Source: Verrucomicrobiota bacterium
GTDB lineage: Bacteria; Verrucomicrobiota; Verrucomicrobiia; JAWXBN01
DNA: 33,840 bases
Direction of reading: 5' to 3'
Assembly: GCA_034440155.1 (NCBI GenBank)
Contig: JAWXBN010000022.1
Coordinates: forward strand, 1 to 33,840
Position numbers and translations under genes: made by a program. The first letter of the stretch is position 1. Each line of letters starts with the position of its first letter. This document shows, in pieces, positions 10,734 through 19,638 of this stretch. The notes under the pieces are model-generated. The model made no database searches. It was not told the origin of the DNA and saw only the letters and a program-made list of their open reading frames with translations.

Positions 10734-11010
10734 AATCCCGCATTTATGACCGAAGCCTCTGAGAGATTCAAGGATGAAAACTGGGATGAGGTGAAACACT
10801 GTAATGATATCGAACGGGATTGTCCCCGGATTCATCATGGCTGTGGGAAATTAAATCCCGGCAACTACCCCTATTAAATAGTAGTCTCAGGAGTAGGGGA
10901 GTCTATCGGGAGATGTCAAAACGGTAAAAAGGGGACAAAAAAGAACGGTTTCTCTATGGGATGACGCAAATTACTATTGATTGAAGAGCAGAGGCAATTA
11001 TTGTGTCCTT

Positions 11011-11787
11011 ATGTTGCTTGAACACCTCCATCACAGACCTAAACCTGCCAATAAAAAAATCCAGCTCATGACCACTTGTCTTTGTGACGCATTCTTTGAC
11101 GATGTCGCAAAGGCCACGGTTCAAGTCCTCGAGTACCTCGGGTGTGAGATTTCCCTCCCGGATGAACAGACCTGTTGCGGACAGCCAGCCTTTAACGGGG
11201 GTGATTGGCCATCCTCACGTCGGGTCGTCAGGCATACGGCAAAAGTTTTCCATTCTGATGACACAGTGGTGACACCGTCAGGCTCTTGCGCGGCGATGCT
11301 TTTCCATGGGGCATTATTAGAGTTTGAGAAAGAAAAAGATTTACCTGAGATCGAGAAGCTTGCCAATAAGACATGGGAATTAACCGATTACATTTATAAC
11401 GGCCTCGGGATCAAGACCTGGCCGGGCAAACTCAATGCCAAAGTCGCCTTCCACCGTTCCTGCCATACCCGAGGAACGGAAAGTGGTCCGGCATCACTGG
11501 CTTTACTTGATTCGATCGAAGGACTCGAAATCATGCCTTTCGGGGAAGGGGAACAGTGTTGTGGTTTTGGAGGGACATTTTCGGTCACATTCCCATTCAT
11601 CTCCAGTCAGATGGGCCATGCAAAGCTGGCCCATGCACAAGCGTCGAACCCTGATTATCTGGTCAGTGGTGATATGGGGTGCCTCATGCACTTAGGAGGG
11701 ATTGTGGAACGTGACGGGATGAAGCTAAAAACACGGCATGCGGCCCAAATCCTGAGGGATTCACTTATTGAAGGAGGGCTCATCTAA
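11011..11787 (+). CDS. lutA: L-lactate utilization Fe-S protein LutA
   Basis: LutA is a subunit of the LutABC iron-sulfur complex that oxidises L-lactate to pyruvate in the cytoplasm. Two cysteine-rich CCG domains are visible: TCLCDAFFDDVA with EQTCCGQPAFNGG in the N-terminal half, and SCHTRGTESGP with EQCCGFGGTFSV in the C-terminal half, the pattern of heterodisulfide-reductase-like subunits. The start is uncertain. ATG 11011 gives 258 residues. A TTG at 10981 is possible, while ATG 11068 would delete the first beta strand (KIQLM). The stop codon overlaps the lutB start by one base (TAATG), so the two genes are translationally coupled. Confidence 0.92.
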   Translation: MLLEHLHHRPKPANKKIQLMTTCLCDAFFDDVAKATVQVLEYLGCEISLPDEQTCCGQPAFNGGDWPSSRRVVRHTAKVFHSDDTVVTPSGSCAAMLFHGALLEFEKEKDLPEIEKLANKTWELTDYIYNGLGIKTWPGKLNAKVAFHRSCHTRGTESGPASLALLDSIEGLEIMPFGEGEQCCGFGGTFSVTFPFISSQMGHAKLAHAQASNPDYLVSGDMGCLMHLGGIVERDGMKLKTRHAAQILRDSLIEGGLI

Positions 11788-13184
11788 TGGCCTACCAAAA
11801 AATCGATTCCTATGCGCAGACTCTTGATGAGGAAGTGCGCACTTCGGTAAAAAATGCCTCAGCCCTGAAAACCAAATCCCGTGTGGACAGCCTCTGGCGT
11901 GATTTCCAAGATCCGGACAAATTGCGTGAGGTCTCCGGCCTGATAAAGCAGCATGTCATAGAAAACCTGGATACCTACCTGCCCAAAGTCGAGGAGGCCC
12001 TGACCGAACGTGGAGTCAAGGTCCATTGGGCCAGTGATGCGGAAGAAGCCCGTAAAATCATCCTAGGATTAATGCAGAGTATCGGTGCCAAAAAAATGGT
12101 GAAATCAAAATCCATGGTATCCGAGGAAATCGAGCTGGGTCATTACCTTGAAAAGCATGGGATGGAAGCTGTCGAGACAGATTTGGGAGAGTATATCGTC
12201 CAGATAGACCATGACCATCCGAGTCATATCGTGACCCCGATCATCCATAAAAACCGCCGCCAAATAGCTGAAAGCTTTGAGCGCGAGGGGCTCGGGGAAT
12301 ATAATGATGATCCTGCCGTGATTACGGCGAGAGCCCGGAAATTCCTCCGCAATAAATACCTCGAAGCAGAAGTCGGGTTGACGGGGGCAAATTTTATCTC
12401 CGCCGAAAGCGGACGGCTGGTTATCGTGACCAATGAAGGTAATTCCCGGTTCTGCCTGGCTCCGACCAAAATGCACATTGCCCTCGTGGGAATCGAGAAA
12501 ATCGTCCCGCGTGACACGGACTTGGCGCTATTCCTAAATTTACTCGCACGCTCCGCCACGGGACAGAAACTCACTATTTATACGGAATTCATTAATGGCC
12601 CGAAATCTCCCGAGCAGCCGGATGGTCCCGAGCAAATGCATGTCGTATTGCTGGATAACGGGCGCAGTGATGTCCTAGCGAGTGAATGCCGCGATATCCT
12701 ACGGTGTATCCGGTGCGGAGCTTGTCTGAATGTCTGTCCGGTTTACCGCCAAGCCAGCGGGCACGCTTACCGGAGTGTTTATCCCGGCCCTGTAGGTGCC
12801 GTGCTTTCGCCGATCCTGGACGCGAAAAAATTCCCCGAGCTCGCTGACCTGCCGAAAGCCTCGAGTTTATGCGGTGCGTGTCATGAAGTGTGTCCGGTGA
12901 ATATTCCGATCCCCGATCTTTTGCTGCGTTTGCGTGATAAGGCGAAAAAAGAACATATTCATTCCCCTAATACTCCTCCGATGGGAGGGTGGTCGATTTT
13001 GGCTAGTGAACCCATCCTGTGGAAATCCGCTTTGATCGCAGGAGCTGTGATGAATGTCATTAATCCGGATTTAATCCCGCTCCCACCGGTCAAACGATGG
13101 ACCATGGTGCGCAAATTACCCGATTGGCACGGGGGTGAATTCCGGAAGTGGTTTAAAAACAGGAAAGTCGACGGGAAAAAATAA
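11787..13184 (+). CDS. lutB: L-lactate utilization Fe-S protein LutB
   Basis: LutB is the 465-residue central subunit of the lactate oxidation complex. The N-terminal 300 residues form the LUD domain. Two [4Fe-4S] motifs follow: CIRCGACLNVCPVYRQ (about 306-321), with the LutB-typical SGHAYRSVYPGPVGAVLSP, and SLCGACHEVCPVNIP (about 357-371). The C-terminal extension with PPMGGWSILASEP is normal for the family. A strong ribosome site (AAGGAGGG, about 11771-11778) lies upstream of the ATG, which overlaps the lutA stop codon. Together with lutA and lutC it makes a complete lutABC operon. No lactate permease gene is present in the window. Confidence 0.95.
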   Translation: MAYQKIDSYAQTLDEEVRTSVKNASALKTKSRVDSLWRDFQDPDKLREVSGLIKQHVIENLDTYLPKVEEALTERGVKVHWASDAEEARKIILGLMQSIGAKKMVKSKSMVSEEIELGHYLEKHGMEAVETDLGEYIVQIDHDHPSHIVTPIIHKNRRQIAESFEREGLGEYNDDPAVITARARKFLRNKYLEAEVGLTGANFISAESGRLVIVTNEGNSRFCLAPTKMHIALVGIEKIVPRDTDLALFLNLLARSATGQKLTIYTEFINGPKSPEQPDGPEQMHVVLLDNGRSDVLASECRDILRCIRCGACLNVCPVYRQASGHAYRSVYPGPVGAVLSPILDAKKFPELADLPKASSLCGACHEVCPVNIPIPDLLLRLRDKAKKEHIHSPNTPPMGGWSILASEPILWKSALIAGAVMNVINPDLIPLPPVKRWTMVRKLPDWHGGEFRKWFKNRKVDGKK

Positions 13185-13246
13185 ACAAGATTGTCGGGAA
13201 CCGTGTCCTGACGGGCACTCCGATAATCAAACTTTTTAAAAAAACT

Positions 13247-13876
13247 ATGAGCACCGAGCAATTTGCATCATCCCGCGAGAAAATCCTTTCCAAAGTCAAT
13301 ACAGCTTTGGCCCCGATCAAAGACCGGGCCGCCATGCCCGAGTATGACCCCAGGATCACAGTGACAAAAACCTTTGACCCTCAAGCGGATCAGTGGGCTT
13401 TTTTTAAGGAAGAATTTGATAAAGTCCATGGTCGGACTTTTTCGACGGGTGCAGAAATCGAGGCCTTTTTTGCATCGAATAACCTCACCTACGGTTATTG
13501 TGATCCGAAGATTCTTGCGCTCATGAGCGAGATTCTTCCTGATAATGTATTACTGGAGACACAGTTTGATCTGGCGAAAATCGATAGTTACCAGTTTGGC
13601 ATTACCTGCGCCAGTGGCGCGATAGCCGAGACCGGATCGATCATTCTGACTGACAAGGATACTTCTCGGCGTTTGGGTGCCTTGGCTCCTTGGGTGCATA
13701 TTGCCTGCGTGGAGCACTCCAGTATCCACGCCACGATCCATGATGCCCTGAAGGCTATGCCAGATGATCCTAATATCATCTGGTGCACCGGACCGTCAAA
13801 AACCGCTGATATCGAAGGTATCCTCATTGAGGGGGTGCACGGTCCCGGCATCCAAGGGTGTTTTCTGCTGCCGTAA
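13247..13876 (+). CDS. lutC: Lactate utilization protein LutC (LUD domain)
   Basis: This 209-residue LUD-domain protein is the third subunit of the LutABC lactate oxidase. Typical blocks are ITCASGAIAETGSIIL and the C-terminal TGPSKTADIEGILIEGVHGP, the family's most conserved signature. It starts 62 bp after lutB, so it probably remains in the same transcript. The first residues (MSTEQFASSREKIL) carry an exact dispersed 9-mer at 13258-13266. The gene ends 42 bp from the tail of the PAS protein gene on the opposite strand, and no clear terminator lies between them. Confidence 0.93.
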   Translation: MSTEQFASSREKILSKVNTALAPIKDRAAMPEYDPRITVTKTFDPQADQWAFFKEEFDKVHGRTFSTGAEIEAFFASNNLTYGYCDPKILALMSEILPDNVLLETQFDLAKIDSYQFGITCASGAIAETGSIILTDKDTSRRLGALAPWVHIACVEHSSIHATIHDALKAMPDDPNIIWCTGPSKTADIEGILIEGVHGPGIQGCFLLP

Positions 13877-13918: not shown

Positions 13919-15028
13919 TCAGGAACTTTTTTTTCCGGACACATCGCGGACGAGGGAGATTACCTGGTCTTTTGAAAAAGGAACCATTCGCATCTCGAAA
14001 AACTTCCTTTTTCCATCAATATGGAGTTCATACTCACATTGTTGGAGACTTTGGGTTTCGATTGTTTTACGGATGGAGTCGGTGTGGAGTTCAGCAATGT
14101 GGCTAGGGAGGATCTCATGGGGTTTTTTACCGAGGAATTGTTCGGGGGATACGACTAATAAGCCCTTATCCAAGGCATAATAATCCATGTATGTCCCGTC
14201 GATATCCTGATGAAAGACCAGATCGGGGAGTGAATGGGGGATTTGCCCTGAATATCCGAGTGCTTGAGCTTCAGCTTCTTTTTCCTTGGTAATATCAATA
14301 TGGCAACCAATCATGCGGACTGGTCTACCCACATCATCCCATTCCACAATTTTGCCCGAGCAAATCACCCACACTGTCGAACCGTTTTTATGGCGGTAAC
14401 GCACTTCATTACAATACGGGATCATACCCCGGGAACGAACATGGTCATCGTAATTTTTTAGAACCATTTCCAGATCTTCCGGGAAAATCATCTTTTTATA
14501 GTTCTCCGCGCTGTCGGGCAGCTCATGATCCTCGTACCCGAAAATCTTCCGGTAGCCGGGACTATTCTTCTGGGTATTCTCCTGGATATTCCAGTCCCAA
14601 AAACCGGATAAAGTCTGTTCGACGACAAGTTCATAAATTGTTTTTGTCTTGAGGAGTTCATGATATTCAGCACTTGCCTTTGGAGTAAAGACAGCTACGG
14701 CCAAGTTATCTTGTTCGGACGACTTCAGTTTTTGGAGTTTAATGACAAATTCGGAAGTTGTATACCCGGACCGGAGAGATATTTCGCAAGTGATCTCGAC
14801 AGGACGGGAGGATTTTGTGTGGAAGATCTGCTCGAGTGCGGCGGAAAGTTCACGATGGAATTTTGGACGGACAATGCGTTGAATGAGGGAGTTTTTAATC
14901 TCAGAACCAGTCAATCCGGTGAGTTGGACGAGAGACTGGTTAAAATCATTAATCTCCCCAAAGGAATCGATCAAGCATACTCCGAGGGGTATGGCTTCCA
15001 TCAATTGTGAATCAAACTGGTTAAACAT
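13919..15028 (-). CDS. PAS-domain sensor protein without an output domain
   Basis: The 369-residue protein contains three PAS-type units. The first (about 7-115) starts MEAIPLGVCLIDSFGEINDF. The second (about 130-250) is a PAS_3-like unit with FWDWNIQENTQ, YRHKNGSTVWVICSGKIVEW and the PAC-like end GCHIDITKEKEAEAQ. The third (about 262-365) starts SLPDLVFHQDIDGTYMDYYA and ends VISLVRDVSGKKSS. PAS domains bind cofactors or small ligands. Here no kinase, GGDEF, EAL or HTH domain follows, and no membrane helix precedes. The TGA stop is just after an A8 run, but the other two frames also close within a few codons, so a simple frameshift does not reveal a lost output domain. Partner unknown. Confidence 0.8.
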   Translation of the reverse strand: MFNQFDSQLMEAIPLGVCLIDSFGEINDFNQSLVQLTGLTGSEIKNSLIQRIVRPKFHRELSAALEQIFHTKSSRPVEITCEISLRSGYTTSEFVIKLQKLKSSEQDNLAVAVFTPKASAEYHELLKTKTIYELVVEQTLSGFWDWNIQENTQKNSPGYRKIFGYEDHELPDSAENYKKMIFPEDLEMVLKNYDDHVRSRGMIPYCNEVRYRHKNGSTVWVICSGKIVEWDDVGRPVRMIGCHIDITKEKEAEAQALGYSGQIPHSLPDLVFHQDIDGTYMDYYALDKGLLVVSPEQFLGKKPHEILPSHIAELHTDSIRKTIETQSLQQCEYELHIDGKRKFFEMRMVPFSKDQVISLVRDVSGKKSS

Positions 15029-15296: not shown

Positions 15297-17537
15297 TTAA
15301 ATCATTTCAACCATTTTCCCGGTCGCTTTAATCCGGATTTTTCCACCGGAGGGTACCACGATGCGGGACATGCGGTGATTCCAGTTTTGGCCGAGGATTG
15401 ATTTACTCTCTTCTTTTGTCTCGGCAAAGACTTTGACTGTCGCATCGAATTTTGTGGGATTGGAGAGTGCGAGTGTGATCACCCCACCGTCACGGGATAG
15501 TATTGTAGCGTCGATATGGTCGTTGACACTGATGACTCCGGTATCCGTCTGGATATAGATCCCGGGTACTTCCATCCAAGCAAAGATGAGGCAGACCTCG
15601 CTCCAGCAGGAACAAGCGCAGATTTCCCCACAAGGATCGATCCCGTCACCCATTTGGACACGTTCACTCATGAAACCCTCGGGCATTCCTGCGATTACTT
15701 TATCGGTACGGCTGAGGAATTGGGGAAGGGCATGGGTGAGTTCACGCAAAATGCGCAACCAGATTTCTTCGCCCGTAGCACGGAAAAGCTTGAGAAAACT
15801 GTCGCCGGAGAGGGTGCAGAGTCCGGGAACCGCACATTTATTCTGGGTGCTGGCAAAGATCGTGCCTGTCGTGAGCATATCGAGTTTGCCATAGGTGGAT
15901 TTGGGCGGGAATTTATAATCGTAGGAGACAAACCACGAAACCAATTGTACCGCGGCGATCCGGGCCTGCTCTAACCACTCCTCTTTGCCGGTGACTTCAT
16001 AAAGGGTAACCAGGGACTCGAGCAAATTGCCCAGGGATTCACTGTCAGCGGATTGCAAGATCTCTCCCGGGCCCCCCGTGGTGACGCCGCTGGCCAAGTC
16101 TTCTGTGCAATACTTCCGCGCAATTTGCTCGGCGACCTCTAAATAATGGGAATCCTTGAACCACTCGGATGCTAAGGCCAATCCGGCAGGTGCGCTGGAA
16201 CCGGCTGTCGAACCCCCGACAAAGATTTCCCCGGTGTCGTGGTTAACAAATTGACCGAGCTGGCCGTATTGTTTCCAGGTCTTGACAAATGCGTCCGCAA
16301 CACGGCGGATTCCTTTTTCCCATTCCGGTGGGCATGTCCAAGAAGGATCTTGTTTGCGGATAATATCAAATTGGCGGAATCCGAAATAGAGCATGTCCGC
16401 GCTTTTGCGGTTCAAGTGCCACGGCCAATCCTGGTGTTGGAAATGATCGCTGAAAAATTTACGTTCAAAGTTATAAAACCCGTAGAAGTAGCCGCTCGGG
16501 GCCAGGGCTTCCTGAAAACAAAAGTCCAGGGTTCTGAGTGAACGCTCTTTTGAAAGTTTGTTTCCTTCGCTCAAGAGTGTCTGGGTCACCATCCCTTGGC
16601 CAGTCCAGCCAGGTTGCCAAGCGGACATGTGGGCATCGCCAGTTCCCGCGTAAGCTTTGTCCCATTGGAAATTATGCAGGTTATATTTCCTTTCCTGGAT
16701 CTCCCAGGATTTCGAGAAGGGGAGTTCATTCCGCACCAGCGGCTCGGATGTGGAAACATTACGCAGATCGGTGAAGCTCTCAAAAAGGTCTTGGATATGT
16801 CCGGCCTCCCCCCCGAAAAAGAGGATGGATAGTGACAGGGTTTGTCCGGCATCCAAAGTCGCGGCTTTGTCCGGCGAATCTTTCATCAGGGAGAGTAAAT
16901 TAAAGCTTTTGCATTGGCGCACCCCTGGGGTTTCGATGGCGATCAAGGCACTCTGACGGTCTTCGCTCTCCTCAAGCACGAGTCCGTGGTCTCCCCGACC
17001 ACTGTCTTGACCGGTCAGGAACCACGCTTGCCGCTGGAGGCTAGGGGAATAATATCCGATAGCCGGGACAGAGGCGTCGCCGCTGAGGAGATGAAACCGT
17101 GAGGGGCCATTTTCAATATTGAGCCGGGGAATATCGGTAATGATACACGGGACGTCGGGCCCGACTTCGGCGGGTTCGCTCAGCATCGGAGGATAATAGA
17201 TGCGACGTGAAGTGTAACGGTTCCCATTATAAATAGCTCCCGGGACAAGGACAAAATTCTCCCTGCTCCACTTTTCTTGGGGGAACTCGGCGGAGAGATT
17301 TACGTCTGGCGCATGACCGGACTCTAAGGTCAGGCTGGCTTGGATTTCAGATCCCGTATGGCCATTATGGGTGGCGGGTTTGATATGGATTTTCCAGCTC
17401 CAGTTATTCCCATTTGTATCGGAAAATTTACCTTGGTCGCCGCCGGAAGTGTCAATGACATGCCGAGAGTCGGGGATTGTCCCTTTGAAATGATTAAGGA
17501 TGATGGAGAAAGGGGGAAGTGGAGATGTTAGTTTCAT
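15297..17537 (-). CDS. Six-hairpin glycosidase-like protein of unassigned family
   Basis: This 746-residue protein has no signal peptide. The N-terminal ~290 residues look like a beta-sandwich. The middle (about 300-640) is rich in paired helices with aromatic and Gly turns, for example HMSAWQPGWTGQGMV, SGYFYGFYNFERKFF and TGEIFVGGSTAGSSAPAGLA. That is the pattern of (alpha/alpha)6-barrel glycoside hydrolases and lyases. The C-terminus is again beta-rich. Candidate catalytic acids cannot be named from one sequence. The gene is divergent from a GntR/LacI-like regulator across a 95-bp gap, the usual layout for a sugar-induced catabolic enzyme, so a cytoplasmic glycosidase or phosphorylase acting on imported oligosaccharides is the best guess. 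I do not recognise a CAZy family. Two exact dispersed 9-mers lie at 16022 and 16120. Confidence 0.6.
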   Translation of the reverse strand: MKLTSPLPPFSIILNHFKGTIPDSRHVIDTSGGDQGKFSDTNGNNWSWKIHIKPATHNGHTGSEIQASLTLESGHAPDVNLSAEFPQEKWSRENFVLVPGAIYNGNRYTSRRIYYPPMLSEPAEVGPDVPCIITDIPRLNIENGPSRFHLLSGDASVPAIGYYSPSLQRQAWFLTGQDSGRGDHGLVLEESEDRQSALIAIETPGVRQCKSFNLLSLMKDSPDKAATLDAGQTLSLSILFFGGEAGHIQDLFESFTDLRNVSTSEPLVRNELPFSKSWEIQERKYNLHNFQWDKAYAGTGDAHMSAWQPGWTGQGMVTQTLLSEGNKLSKERSLRTLDFCFQEALAPSGYFYGFYNFERKFFSDHFQHQDWPWHLNRKSADMLYFGFRQFDIIRKQDPSWTCPPEWEKGIRRVADAFVKTWKQYGQLGQFVNHDTGEIFVGGSTAGSSAPAGLALASEWFKDSHYLEVAEQIARKYCTEDLASGVTTGGPGEILQSADSESLGNLLESLVTLYEVTGKEEWLEQARIAAVQLVSWFVSYDYKFPPKSTYGKLDMLTTGTIFASTQNKCAVPGLCTLSGDSFLKLFRATGEEIWLRILRELTHALPQFLSRTDKVIAGMPEGFMSERVQMGDGIDPCGEICACSCWSEVCLIFAWMEVPGIYIQTDTGVISVNDHIDATILSRDGGVITLALSNPTKFDATVKVFAETKEESKSILGQNWNHRMSRIVVPSGGKIRIKATGKMVEMI

Positions 17538-17569
17538 GGGTGATTTTTTTTTAATAGAATCTTGTGACG

Positions 17570-17613
17570 GTAGGATTCACCCTTTTTATTTGCAACTCCT
17601 ACAGTATTCCTAC
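17570..17613. promoter_or_regulatory. Candidate operator in the divergent regulator/glycosidase promoter
   Basis: In the 95-bp gap between the divergent genes, TCCTAC occurs twice on the plus strand, at 17597-17602 and 17608-17613. The copies are 11 bp apart, about one helical turn. The inverted form GTAGGA lies at 17570-17575. This half-site arrangement fits a dimeric GntR/LacI-type repressor acting on both promoters. It is inferred from repetition and position only. Confidence 0.4.
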
Positions 17614-17632
17614 ACAATAATATCTCTCCCCC

Positions 17633-18766
17633 ATGAGCCGCCCAAAGATCATTCATGATATGCCCCCGATCCGGGAGCTATGGCCTAGGCCGGAATCGCT
17701 CCGGAAAATGAAAGCGCCATTAACTCAAGCATTGGCGCAAGAGCTTCGTAAAATGATTCCGGGTTTGCAGACGGGTCAAAGCCGGGCATTTTATACTACC
17801 CGCGAAATAGCGGCGCATTTTAGAGTCGATCTCAAGGCTGTCGGGCAAGCGTGCAAATTGCTCCAGGGCGAGGGGTTATTAGTGAGGGTGAGGGGTTCGG
17901 CCACCTTGGTGTCACCTGTCCAATCACTTCCGCGCCAGAAAATCAGGGGAGTGGTGGCTGTACCAGTGTGGAGCTACGGTTTCTGTAATTTATTCGACTG
18001 GCGTCTTTTTCACATGGGTTTGGAAGAGTCCCTCCGCGGATATGATTATGTCGCCAATCTGATTTTTTTTGGGGAGGGGGACGAGGCACCGGAGAAAATG
18101 ATCAAACGGATTTTAATGCACAGGCCTGATATGATTGTTTGGTATCAACCATTGAGGAGTGTCCTGGATATTCTCCAGCGACTTTCGGATGTCGGAATCC
18201 GCCCGGTGGTCATCCCTGATAAGGGGGTGCATTTTCCTTTCAGCAGTTATCAGGTGGATAAGGTATTGGCAGCCCAAAAAGCCATGAGGGCGTGGAAAAG
18301 GGCGGGGATAAGCCGGATAAACTTTATCAGTACGGGAAAGATATCCATGGATGATGAGATTTTTCAGCAAATGACTATGACCGGGAAACTTTCGATTCCT
18401 GTCAGATGTATAGAGACCATGGCTGTGGGTCTTGCTGAGAATTTAAAAACGATGATACCGTCGGCTGACGAAGCATTTGTTATATACGACATTAATCTCT
18501 GCGCGATGTTATTCCGCCATAATGAGGCGGACTTCCGGAGTTTGATCAAAAGTAATCGTGTCCTGCTCCCGGGGCATATAGACTCTTCGAGTAACCAACT
18601 CCACGGAGTGAAGGCGGACTTTATCCTTACAGATTTGTCTTTTATGGCCGCGCAAATTGCAAAGGATATCGCCTCTCAAAACCTTCCTGCCCTGGGTTCC
18701 CCACGTGTTTTCCATGCGGAATATCTCGCCCGGGCCGAGACGGCGCAATTTGCGCGGACATATTAG
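17633..18766 (+). CDS. GntR-type DNA-binding, LacI-type ligand-binding transcriptional regulator
   Basis: This 377-residue regulator has a winged helix-turn-helix at about 30-100, reading FYTTREIAAHFRVDLKAVGQ and then LLQGEGLLVRVRGSATLVSP. This is the GntR order of recognition helix and wing. From about 105 onward a periplasmic-binding-protein-like sensor fold follows (RGVVAVPVWSYG, RPDMIVWYQPLRSVLDIL, GIRPVVIPDKG, ADFILTDLSFMAAQIAKDI). Such GntR-LacI hybrids are common in Verrucomicrobiota next to carbohydrate genes. It is divergent from the glycosidase-like gene, the likely target along with itself. Three exact dispersed 9-mers fall in this gene (17853, 18652, 18745); the last sits in the final residues (TAQFARTY). 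Confidence 0.82.
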   Translation: MSRPKIIHDMPPIRELWPRPESLRKMKAPLTQALAQELRKMIPGLQTGQSRAFYTTREIAAHFRVDLKAVGQACKLLQGEGLLVRVRGSATLVSPVQSLPRQKIRGVVAVPVWSYGFCNLFDWRLFHMGLEESLRGYDYVANLIFFGEGDEAPEKMIKRILMHRPDMIVWYQPLRSVLDILQRLSDVGIRPVVIPDKGVHFPFSSYQVDKVLAAQKAMRAWKRAGISRINFISTGKISMDDEIFQQMTMTGKLSIPVRCIETMAVGLAENLKTMIPSADEAFVIYDINLCAMLFRHNEADFRSLIKSNRVLLPGHIDSSSNQLHGVKADFILTDLSFMAAQIAKDIASQNLPALGSPRVFHAEYLARAETAQFARTY

Positions 18767-19422
18767 AATATGGCGGATGATCTATACGGGAAAAAGGAAA
18801 TGATGTTTTTGTATCTTGTTAAGTCTGCGCTTTACGGTACGAAAATCCGACACACTAAAAAATAATGTTCGGGTTCCGGTCAGTAATTGAAAAAAATTCA
18901 TCCTTCAGTTTTTTTGAAGGCGTCAAAGGCTGCATCCACATCATTTAGGAACACGAGAAAAAGCTTATCGAGATTTGTGTGCTGTCTCCTGAGAAAGTGC
19001 CTCAAAACATGCATGTCCCAGCGGATGGGTTAACGACAGAAATGGCAGGCCAGCTTTTTGATGAATACGGGCCCAACCACTCAGGCAACCCTCAAAAAAC
19101 TCCTACCACAAAGAGATTTCCTCTTTGGCCAAGGCGATCCAATCGCCCACGACCTGAATCAAAATGGTCATAGTGATCAGATGGGCGTGCGCCTGACCCT
19201 CCGCTCATCCACCCACTATGCGTCTGATCGGACTATTTATGATTGCCTAGACGTCCGCCTCACGTCTTTGCCTTCATCCGGGGCCTGATTAGAGTGCGGT
19301 TTTTGATCTGGGAGGGCAGTGCGTGCCCGCTGCCGGAAAATGACACGAGTGAAGCGGAAGATTTTTTTAAGCTTAAATTGTCGGCTGATTTGATTTATGC
19401 TTATATTTATTTCCTGTCTTAT
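18767..19422. other. Gene-poor region with possible gene debris
   Basis: These 656 bp between the regulator and tRNA-Arg hold no convincing intact gene. A hairpin CCTTCA-N7-TGAAGG lies at 18902-18920, flanked by A-rich sequence. From about 18960 to 19290, segments with coding texture shift frame (LFDEYGPNHSGNP in one, GQGDPIAHDLNQNGHSDQ in the next), as expected from a decayed gene. No parent family could be named. A segment at 19309-19334 resembles the near-palindrome at 9325-9346. Confidence 0.45.
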
Positions 19423-19498
19423 GACTCTATAGCTCAACAGGACAGAGCAGTGGTTTCCTAAACCATTTATCCCCGTTCGAGTCGGGGTAGGGTCACCA
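19423..19498 (+). tRNA. tRNA-Arg (anticodon CCU)
   Basis: The 76-nt cloverleaf folds fully. The acceptor GACTCTA pairs with TAGGGTC (one G-U). The D arm is GCTC/GAGC with GG in the loop. The anticodon stem GTGGT/ACCAT encloses TTCCTAA, giving anticodon CCT, which reads AGG. The T arm is CCCCG-TTCGAGT-CGGGG. The discriminator base is A, and the CCA end is encoded (19496-19498). A 12-bp direct repeat (TTTAAAAATTCT at 19499-19510 and 19513-19524) follows immediately. tRNA-Arg(CCU) genes are frequent integration sites, but no integrase is seen here. Confidence 0.95.
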
Positions 19499-19583
19499 TT
19501 TAAAAATTCTTTTTTAAAAATTCTGGTTTACAGGATTAGGGGTTTTCATAATAGTGCTGCCCCTTCTATGAGATGTGTCAGGA

Positions 19584-19632
19584 TCCCCTAGTGGTTGAAT
19601 CCAGAGCTCCGTAAAGGGGAAGATTTAAGGAG
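19584..19632 (+). promoter_or_regulatory. Leader hairpin and strong ribosome binding site of the SDR gene
   Basis: AAGGAG at 19627-19632 lies 6 bases before the ATG at 19639, one of the few strong Shine-Dalgarno sites in the window. Just upstream, TCCCCT (19584-19589) can pair with AGGGGA (19615-19620) around a 25-nt loop. The hairpin could be structural or regulatory. It matches no riboswitch class I recognise. Confidence 0.4.
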
Positions 19633-19638
19633 AAATCA

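Follow-up and report, generated by a model that had tools for sequence, protein, structure and literature searches.

The window analysed here, a stretch of 33,840 nucleotides from a Verrucomicrobiota bacterium (GenBank assembly GCA_034440155.1, contig JAWXBN010000022.1; genome of 2.76 Mb in 132 contigs), carries a gene for a 746-residue protein, hereafter the enzyme, and, divergent from it across 95 base pairs (bp), a gene for a 377-residue regulator. The coordinates and lengths of both open reading frames (ORFs) and of the gap are as given in an earlier, sequence-only reading of this DNA. The explanation that we moderately favor places the enzyme in the cytoplasm as a carbohydrate-active enzyme (CAZyme), likeliest a glycoside hydrolase (GH), of an undescribed family in the six-hairpin superfamily, and under the control of the divergent, AraR-like regulator. 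The enzyme lies outside Pfam and NCBIfam (CAZy was not compared) and probably represents an undescribed GH or polysaccharide lyase (PL) family within a known superfamily.

Predicted Fold and Structural Relatives of the Enzyme

The AlphaFold2 model of the enzyme, calculated from a 21-row alignment, has a mean predicted local distance difference test score (pLDDT) of 91.5 and a predicted template modeling score (pTM) of 0.94. It folds into an N-terminal β-sandwich, an (α/α)6 barrel, and a small C-terminal β domain, in agreement with the three-part barrel enzyme proposed in the sequence-only reading. The twelve barrel helices, from 274–289 to 645–656, alternate between six outer and six inner positions, with R377, E500, S577, W645, and E647 at or just before helix starts, which is the arrangement of the six-hairpin superfamily. 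The N terminus shows no strongly hydrophobic stretch, so the enzyme is probably cytoplasmic.

The top whole-length Foldseek match is the PL27 L-rhamnose-α-1,4-D-glucuronate lyase BACCELL_00875 (PDB 5no8, chain A; E = 2.5e-10, template modeling (TM) scores 0.41/0.44), followed by GH94 phosphorylases, GH127, GH65, GH116, and epimerases. PL27 is described as a β-sandwich followed by an (α/α)6 barrel (PMC8377490), an order that the enzyme shares, but the two proteins are 9% identical, and no sequence relationship is detected with the 28-member profile described below. The barrel by itself is structurally similar to those of GH76, GH127, and sugar epimerases. Its VIA-align comparison with GH76 4v1r_A gives Z = 22.4 and a root-mean-square deviation (rmsd) of 4.0 over 330 aligned residues, and rows within 1 of this score, which include 7tem_B, 7tkv_B, and MmpH (7qsj_A), count as tied. 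GH76 α-1,6-mannanase and the GH105 enzyme YteR resemble the enzyme over the barrel only, and the adjacent catalytic Asp pair of GH76 (known from the PDB titles of the D136A and D137A mutants) is not among the enzyme residues that are at least 97% conserved in the 102 core rows described below.

Sequence Searches and Extent of the Family

The sole Pfam match of the enzyme is to GH127 (PF07944; E = 0.014, 14.9 bits), under the gathering cut-off of 24.9, and NCBIfam returns no match; with no model of either collection above cut-off, the statement of the sequence-only reading that the protein matches no nameable family stands. A strong match to a known GH or PL family, the outcome that the reading had named as counting against it, did not appear in Pfam, NCBIfam, or the PDB. 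When 25 family members were scanned singly, weak matches were obtained to GH127 in 10 (best E = 1.7e-5), to GH88 in 6, and to GH76 in 3. With the enzyme sequence alone, the best phmmer match in the PDB is a ubiquitin-like protein (E = 0.48), and a contig scan of genomes gave 29 pattern matches and zero relatives. A 21-row profile found nothing useful in the PDB. A 28-member superfamily profile (A4), from which the distant rows L005–L007 and L036 are left out, detects both YteR (E = 2.7e-5) and GH76 mannanases (E = 1.4e-4). A literature search for a description of such a family returned nothing at the level of listings and the opening lines of abstracts, a level that does not prove the family undescribed.

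Relatives of the enzyme are widespread. A family search of 387 genomes of the phylum gave matches in 46, the source genome included, 22 of them with a best E of 1e-50 or lower. In named genomes, relatives are encoded in 406 of the 418 candidate stretches. The 80 best of these, retrieved by the peptide pattern QN[KR][HC][SAG][AV]P[GA][IFL]C, constitute the named loci considered below (L120/L008, L145/L009, and L175/L010 are duplicate records among the rows). Their hosts are Bacillota (Paenibacillus, Cohnella, Ruminiclostridium, and Clostridium), Bacteroidota, Spirochaetota, Acidobacteriota, Planctomycetota, Lentisphaerota, and Verrucomicrobiota, together with one member of the Hydrogenedentota and one metagenome-assembled genome (MAG) labeled Thalassobius. 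The relatives closest to the enzyme are 41–46% identical to it.

A second, distant set of 12 rows (A3) aligns to the family over 553 columns (profile–profile probability 100, E = 4.9e-42); both of the glutamates discussed below recur in this set (L030–L036 and alignment A3), as does a motif of similar form, P-x-x-[YF]-x-G-N, and the first member scanned has no Pfam family above cut-off. A DsbH-type domain is present in three A3 rows, presumably L005–L007 as judged from length, and rows L002 and L003 are paralogues from the source genome. These paralogues (L115:8922-11321 on contig C19 and L116:3-1970 on contig C49) are ~25% identical to the enzyme over the barrel and retain the same two glutamates. 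The first of them scores right at the Pfam GH127 cut-off, yet the GH127 motifs are absent from the family, and annotation pipelines may therefore mislabel it. A GDSL lipase/esterase domain occurs in two family members (best E = 5.5e-20). From their C-terminal extensions these are L026:1294-3951 and L027:1315-3963, apparently C-terminal fusions, and a fused esterase of this type hints at acetylated substrates.

Conserved Residues and the Putative Active Site

Conservation was assessed over 102 core rows and 8 distant rows, with identity down to ~17%. The co-conserved acids that the sequence-only reading suggested looking for in the barrel are present: Glu500 and Glu625 are Glu in all core and all distant rows (110/110). 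Trp645 is kept in 102/102 core and 7/8 distant rows (109/110). In the N-terminal β-sandwich, P99, Y103, G105, and N106 are kept in all 101 core rows without a gap there; of the 8 distant rows, 7 have Tyr103 and Asn106 (108/109 ungapped rows overall). The invariance of Arg377, Asp223, Trp311, and Asp673 is limited to the core rows. The peptide pattern by which the named loci were retrieved makes the conservation of Gln565, Asn566, Pro571, and Cys574 a product of the selection; Glu500 and Glu625 lie outside the pattern. In the model, the conserved residues belong to the N-terminal domain, to the hairpin that precedes the last inner helix, or to positions at or near inner-helix starts, a placement by secondary structure that we read as an active site containing the glutamate pair. 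On conservation and predicted fold, Glu500 and Glu625 are likely the catalytic pair of the enzyme.

In the mechanism that we propose, the substrate would be a plant-type oligosaccharide taken up by the cell and bound where the inner barrel helices have their N-terminal ends. Glu500 and Glu625 would serve as catalytic acid and base, and the pocket would be closed by the Tyr103/Asn106 loop from the N-terminal β-sandwich. With its LacI-like domain the regulator would sense the freed sugar or the oligosaccharide itself, and its GntR winged helix would bind the 95-bp promoter, repressing both genes until the ligand appears.

Gene Neighborhoods of the Relatives

Forty neighbor proteins of the relatives were scanned, with a few genes counted from two loci each. 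Among the forty are many sugar transporters or CAZymes (GH2, GH29, GH31, GH38, GH39, GH95, GH97, PL8, MFS_2, and SSF, and a GH43 with sulfatase), and many others that are neither (MutL, PhoX, TPR proteins, O-antigen ligase, and proteins of no known function). Ten further neighbors comprise heparinase-like, GH38, β-helix, and PhoX proteins and five without any family. The carbohydrate-active function put forward in the sequence-only reading thus gains indirect support from the relatives.

Clustering of the ORFs from these 80 loci shows a parallel β-helix protein as the commonest neighbor; in the PDB it is related to 9rx2 (E = 2.5e-66) and to BT_1002 (E = 4.9e-44), a family that we take to be GH141. 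BT_1002-like genes flank 20 of the 80 loci, against 0.4–0.6 expected from their density in 30 genomes, hand-picked among the 80, of which 13 belong to the 20 with such a neighbor. Kinship among the Paenibacillus loci makes the associations fewer than 20 in independent terms; on the family tree they span several phyla. The source genome has one BT_1002-like gene, away from the window (38% identity, E = 6.9e-120). One 9.6-Mb genome, a Victivallales MAG (L124, G420), has 42 matches to the BT_1002-like protein. In the Paenibacillaceae genomes of L131, L135, L143, and L156, some matches contain an in-frame TAA, which may reflect gene decay, a split gene, or an error in the sequence.

A GH105-like gene, with YteR and an unsaturated rhamnoglycuronyl hydrolase as PDB relatives, is present in 10 of the 80 loci. 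Six Bacteroidota loci have it immediately downstream of the family gene in the same orientation, at spacings of −3 to 51 bp (locus L126, without a called enzyme ORF, is absent from the gap table of the 80 loci). Taken from the neighbors of the relatives, these associations suggest plant cell-wall side chains as the substrate class.

The Regulator and the Shared Promoter

The regulator matches Pfam GntR at residues 32–93 (E = 7.5e-5, 22.8 bits), under the 27-bit cut-off, and a six-row regulator profile finds YvoA in the PDB (E = 1.2e-4). In its model (pLDDT 80.9, pTM 0.66), a winged helix accompanies a domain of alternating α/β structure; the latter matches sensors of the LacI family, with MalR the best (3hcw_B; VIA-align Z = 18.0, rmsd 3.8, 255 aligned residues). 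With both domains in place, the regulator is a GntR/LacI chimera, in line with the sequence-only reading, and of the AraR type. AraR of Bacillus subtilis is described as joining a GntR winged helix to a GalR/LacI-type domain (PMC4218819), a domain design that the regulator shares. As an ordinary chimeric type, the regulator adds little novelty to the locus. It probably controls the neighboring enzyme gene. Its close relatives are scarce: one search finds them in 5 of 57 genomes and another in 17 of 194, with the source genome in both and many matches short and partial. In a genome of the same class (G047), a GH127 gene (L111:7028-8845) is divergent from, and slightly overlaps, a regulator relative, and the two are a possible sister regulatory module.

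The 95-bp promoter region contains TCCTAC at 17570-17575 (−), 17597-17602 (+), and 17608-17613 (+). The sequence-only reading described these half-sites as helically phased. This holds for the direct pair, spaced 11 bp or about one helical turn apart, and not for the inverted copy, which at 27 and 38 bp from the others is out of phase. AraR uses in-phase paired boxes at some promoters (PMC4218819), by which analogy the 11-bp pair with its inverted copy could conceivably be an operator. The clustering is unusual and not compelling, since 615 of 20,000 dinucleotide shuffles of the 95 bp repeat a hexamer with three or more distinct letters at least three times, counting both strands together; over the whole window TCCTAC occurs 10 times against 8.5 expected. 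TCCTAC-N5-TCCTAC is found once in the whole genome, as is a reversed control pattern. A single TCCTAC lies in 2 of 21 regions upstream of enzyme relatives, and a single copy of its inverse in 1 of 5 regions upstream of regulator relatives, so TCCTAC as a conserved operator is not supported. Around the BT_1002-like gene of the source genome there is no TCCTAC in 14,000 bases, and the stretches with the two paralogues hold two and three scattered copies without a cluster. TCCTAC as an operator is thus weakly supported.

Alternative Explanations

Several observations weigh against a regulated hydrolase of plant-type oligosaccharides. Over the full length, the best structural match is to a lyase and not to a hydrolase, and the invariant glutamates could instead bind metal or substrate. 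Among the 10 other window proteins scanned, polysaccharide-degrading and sugar-transport genes were not found, the closest sugar gene being galactokinase-like and 11 kb from the enzyme. Regulator relatives appear at none of 20 enzyme-family loci (17 genomes, ORFs of at least 120 residues). The family tree also places the enzyme on a long branch, with 1.4 changes per column, and the relatives may therefore not share its substrate. The main rival is a PL27-like lyase that would act by β-elimination on a uronate oligosaccharide, with GH105 finishing the product. The whole-length rank of 5no8_A (VIA-align Z = 19.6, rmsd 6.1, 461 aligned), the shared domain order, the conserved Tyr103 and Arg377, and the downstream GH105-like gene of the six Bacteroidota loci are all consistent with it. 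However, 5no8 is not found by the 28-member profile even at E = 10, and a TM near 0.4 with an rmsd of 10.2 indicates that no single superposition fits both domains. GH105-like neighbors are moreover confined to the 10 loci, mostly of one phylum, and the source genome has no GH88/105 gene above cut-off. We regard such a lyase as unlikely, and hydrolysis would be the likelier chemistry. That the regulator is unrelated to the enzyme and divergent from it by chance is somewhat unlikely. The 20 neighborhood loci without a regulator relative and the lack of TCCTAC conservation would fit a chance pairing; the shared 95-bp promoter region, the sugar-binding type of the effector domain, and the regulator relative divergent from a GH127 gene argue for a functional one.

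The weak Pfam match, itself under cut-off, made GH127 the first family to be considered, and membership was rejected because the Glu-x-Cys and Cys-Cys motifs are missing. HypBA1, a GH127 β-L-arabinofuranosidase, belongs to the same barrel superfamily as the enzyme (profile–profile probability 96.4, E = 1.1e-9) and is among the Foldseek matches, and one paralogue matches Pfam GH127 at E = 1.9e-5, as might be expected of a diverged GH127/GH146-type cysteine glycosidase. The residues Glu312, Cys314, Cys388, and Cys389 (L072 numbering), invariant in 13 GH127 sequences, nevertheless have no counterpart in the family, and hhalign does not pair them with E500 or E625, which makes a cysteine glycosidase very improbable. 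Other roles for a protein with this barrel, as a sugar epimerase, an isomerase, or a sugar-binding protein without catalytic activity, are improbable as well. Cellobiose 2-epimerases and YihS rank high structurally (Z ~20), but these matches start at about residue 270 and lack the N-terminal β-sandwich. Epimerases of the AGE type, which have this fold, use catalytic histidines; no His is conserved at 97% or above in the 102 core rows, and an epimerase was rejected on this ground.

Other Features of the Window

The coordinates of the enzyme, the regulator, and their parts are collected in Table 1. At lower window coordinates, LutABC-like lactate oxidation genes (CCG, LUD, and Fer4 domains) occupy 10981-13876, and a gene for a PAS-domain protein (13919-15028) adjoins both these and the enzyme gene. 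A tRNA gene is located at 19423-19495, within an ORF-poor stretch (18767-19638) past the regulator.

Table 1. Features of the enzyme–regulator locus, in window coordinates
Feature	Position	Strand	Basis or assignment
Enzyme gene, 746 residues	15297..17537	−	ORF; candidate GH/PL family of the six-hairpin superfamily
N-terminal β-sandwich, residues 1–258, mostly β	16764..17537	−	Secondary structure of model; conservation
Conserved motif of the N-terminal β-sandwich, codons 99–106, PGAIYNGN (P99-x3-Y103-x-G-N106)	17220..17243	−	Conservation
12-helix (α/α)6 barrel, residues 274–656	15570..16718	−	Model; structural alignments
Glu500 codon, motif D-S-E, inner-helix start	16038..16040	−	Predicted catalytic carboxylate; conservation
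Glu625 codon, motif E-R-V, hairpin ahead of last inner helix	15663..15665	−	Predicted catalytic carboxylate; conservation
Small C-terminal β domain, residues 660–746	15300..15560	−	Model
Divergent promoter region, 95 bp	17538..17632	none	Between enzyme and regulator ORFs
GTAGGA / TCCTAC / TCCTAC repeats	17570..17613	none	Possible autoregulatory operator
Regulator gene, 377 residues	17633..18766	+	ORF; GntR winged helix and LacI/periplasmic-binding-protein-like sensor
GntR-type DNA-binding domain, residues ~30–93	17720..17911	+	Pfam GntR below cut-off; YvoA profile matches
LacI-like effector domain, residues ~104–370	17942..18742	+	VIA-align to MalR 3hcw_B

Implications for the Family

The observations on the enzyme and its relatives can be joined in one broader reading, which we put forward tentatively. 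The enzyme would belong to a large new family of about eight phyla, including cultured Paenibacillus and Ruminiclostridium, with an active site of its own made up of Glu500, Glu625, and the Tyr/Asn loop; its partners would be BT_1002-like and GH105-like enzymes, their joint target would be a plant cell-wall side chain that carries fucose or uronate, and the A3-type family would be its sister. If this is correct, a widespread family outside Pfam and NCBIfam gains a fold, a predicted catalytic pair, and cultured hosts. Families of this kind are unassigned steps of plant cell-wall breakdown, and here the invariant glutamate pair and the BT_1002-like and GH105-like neighbors would make both mechanism and substrate directly testable.

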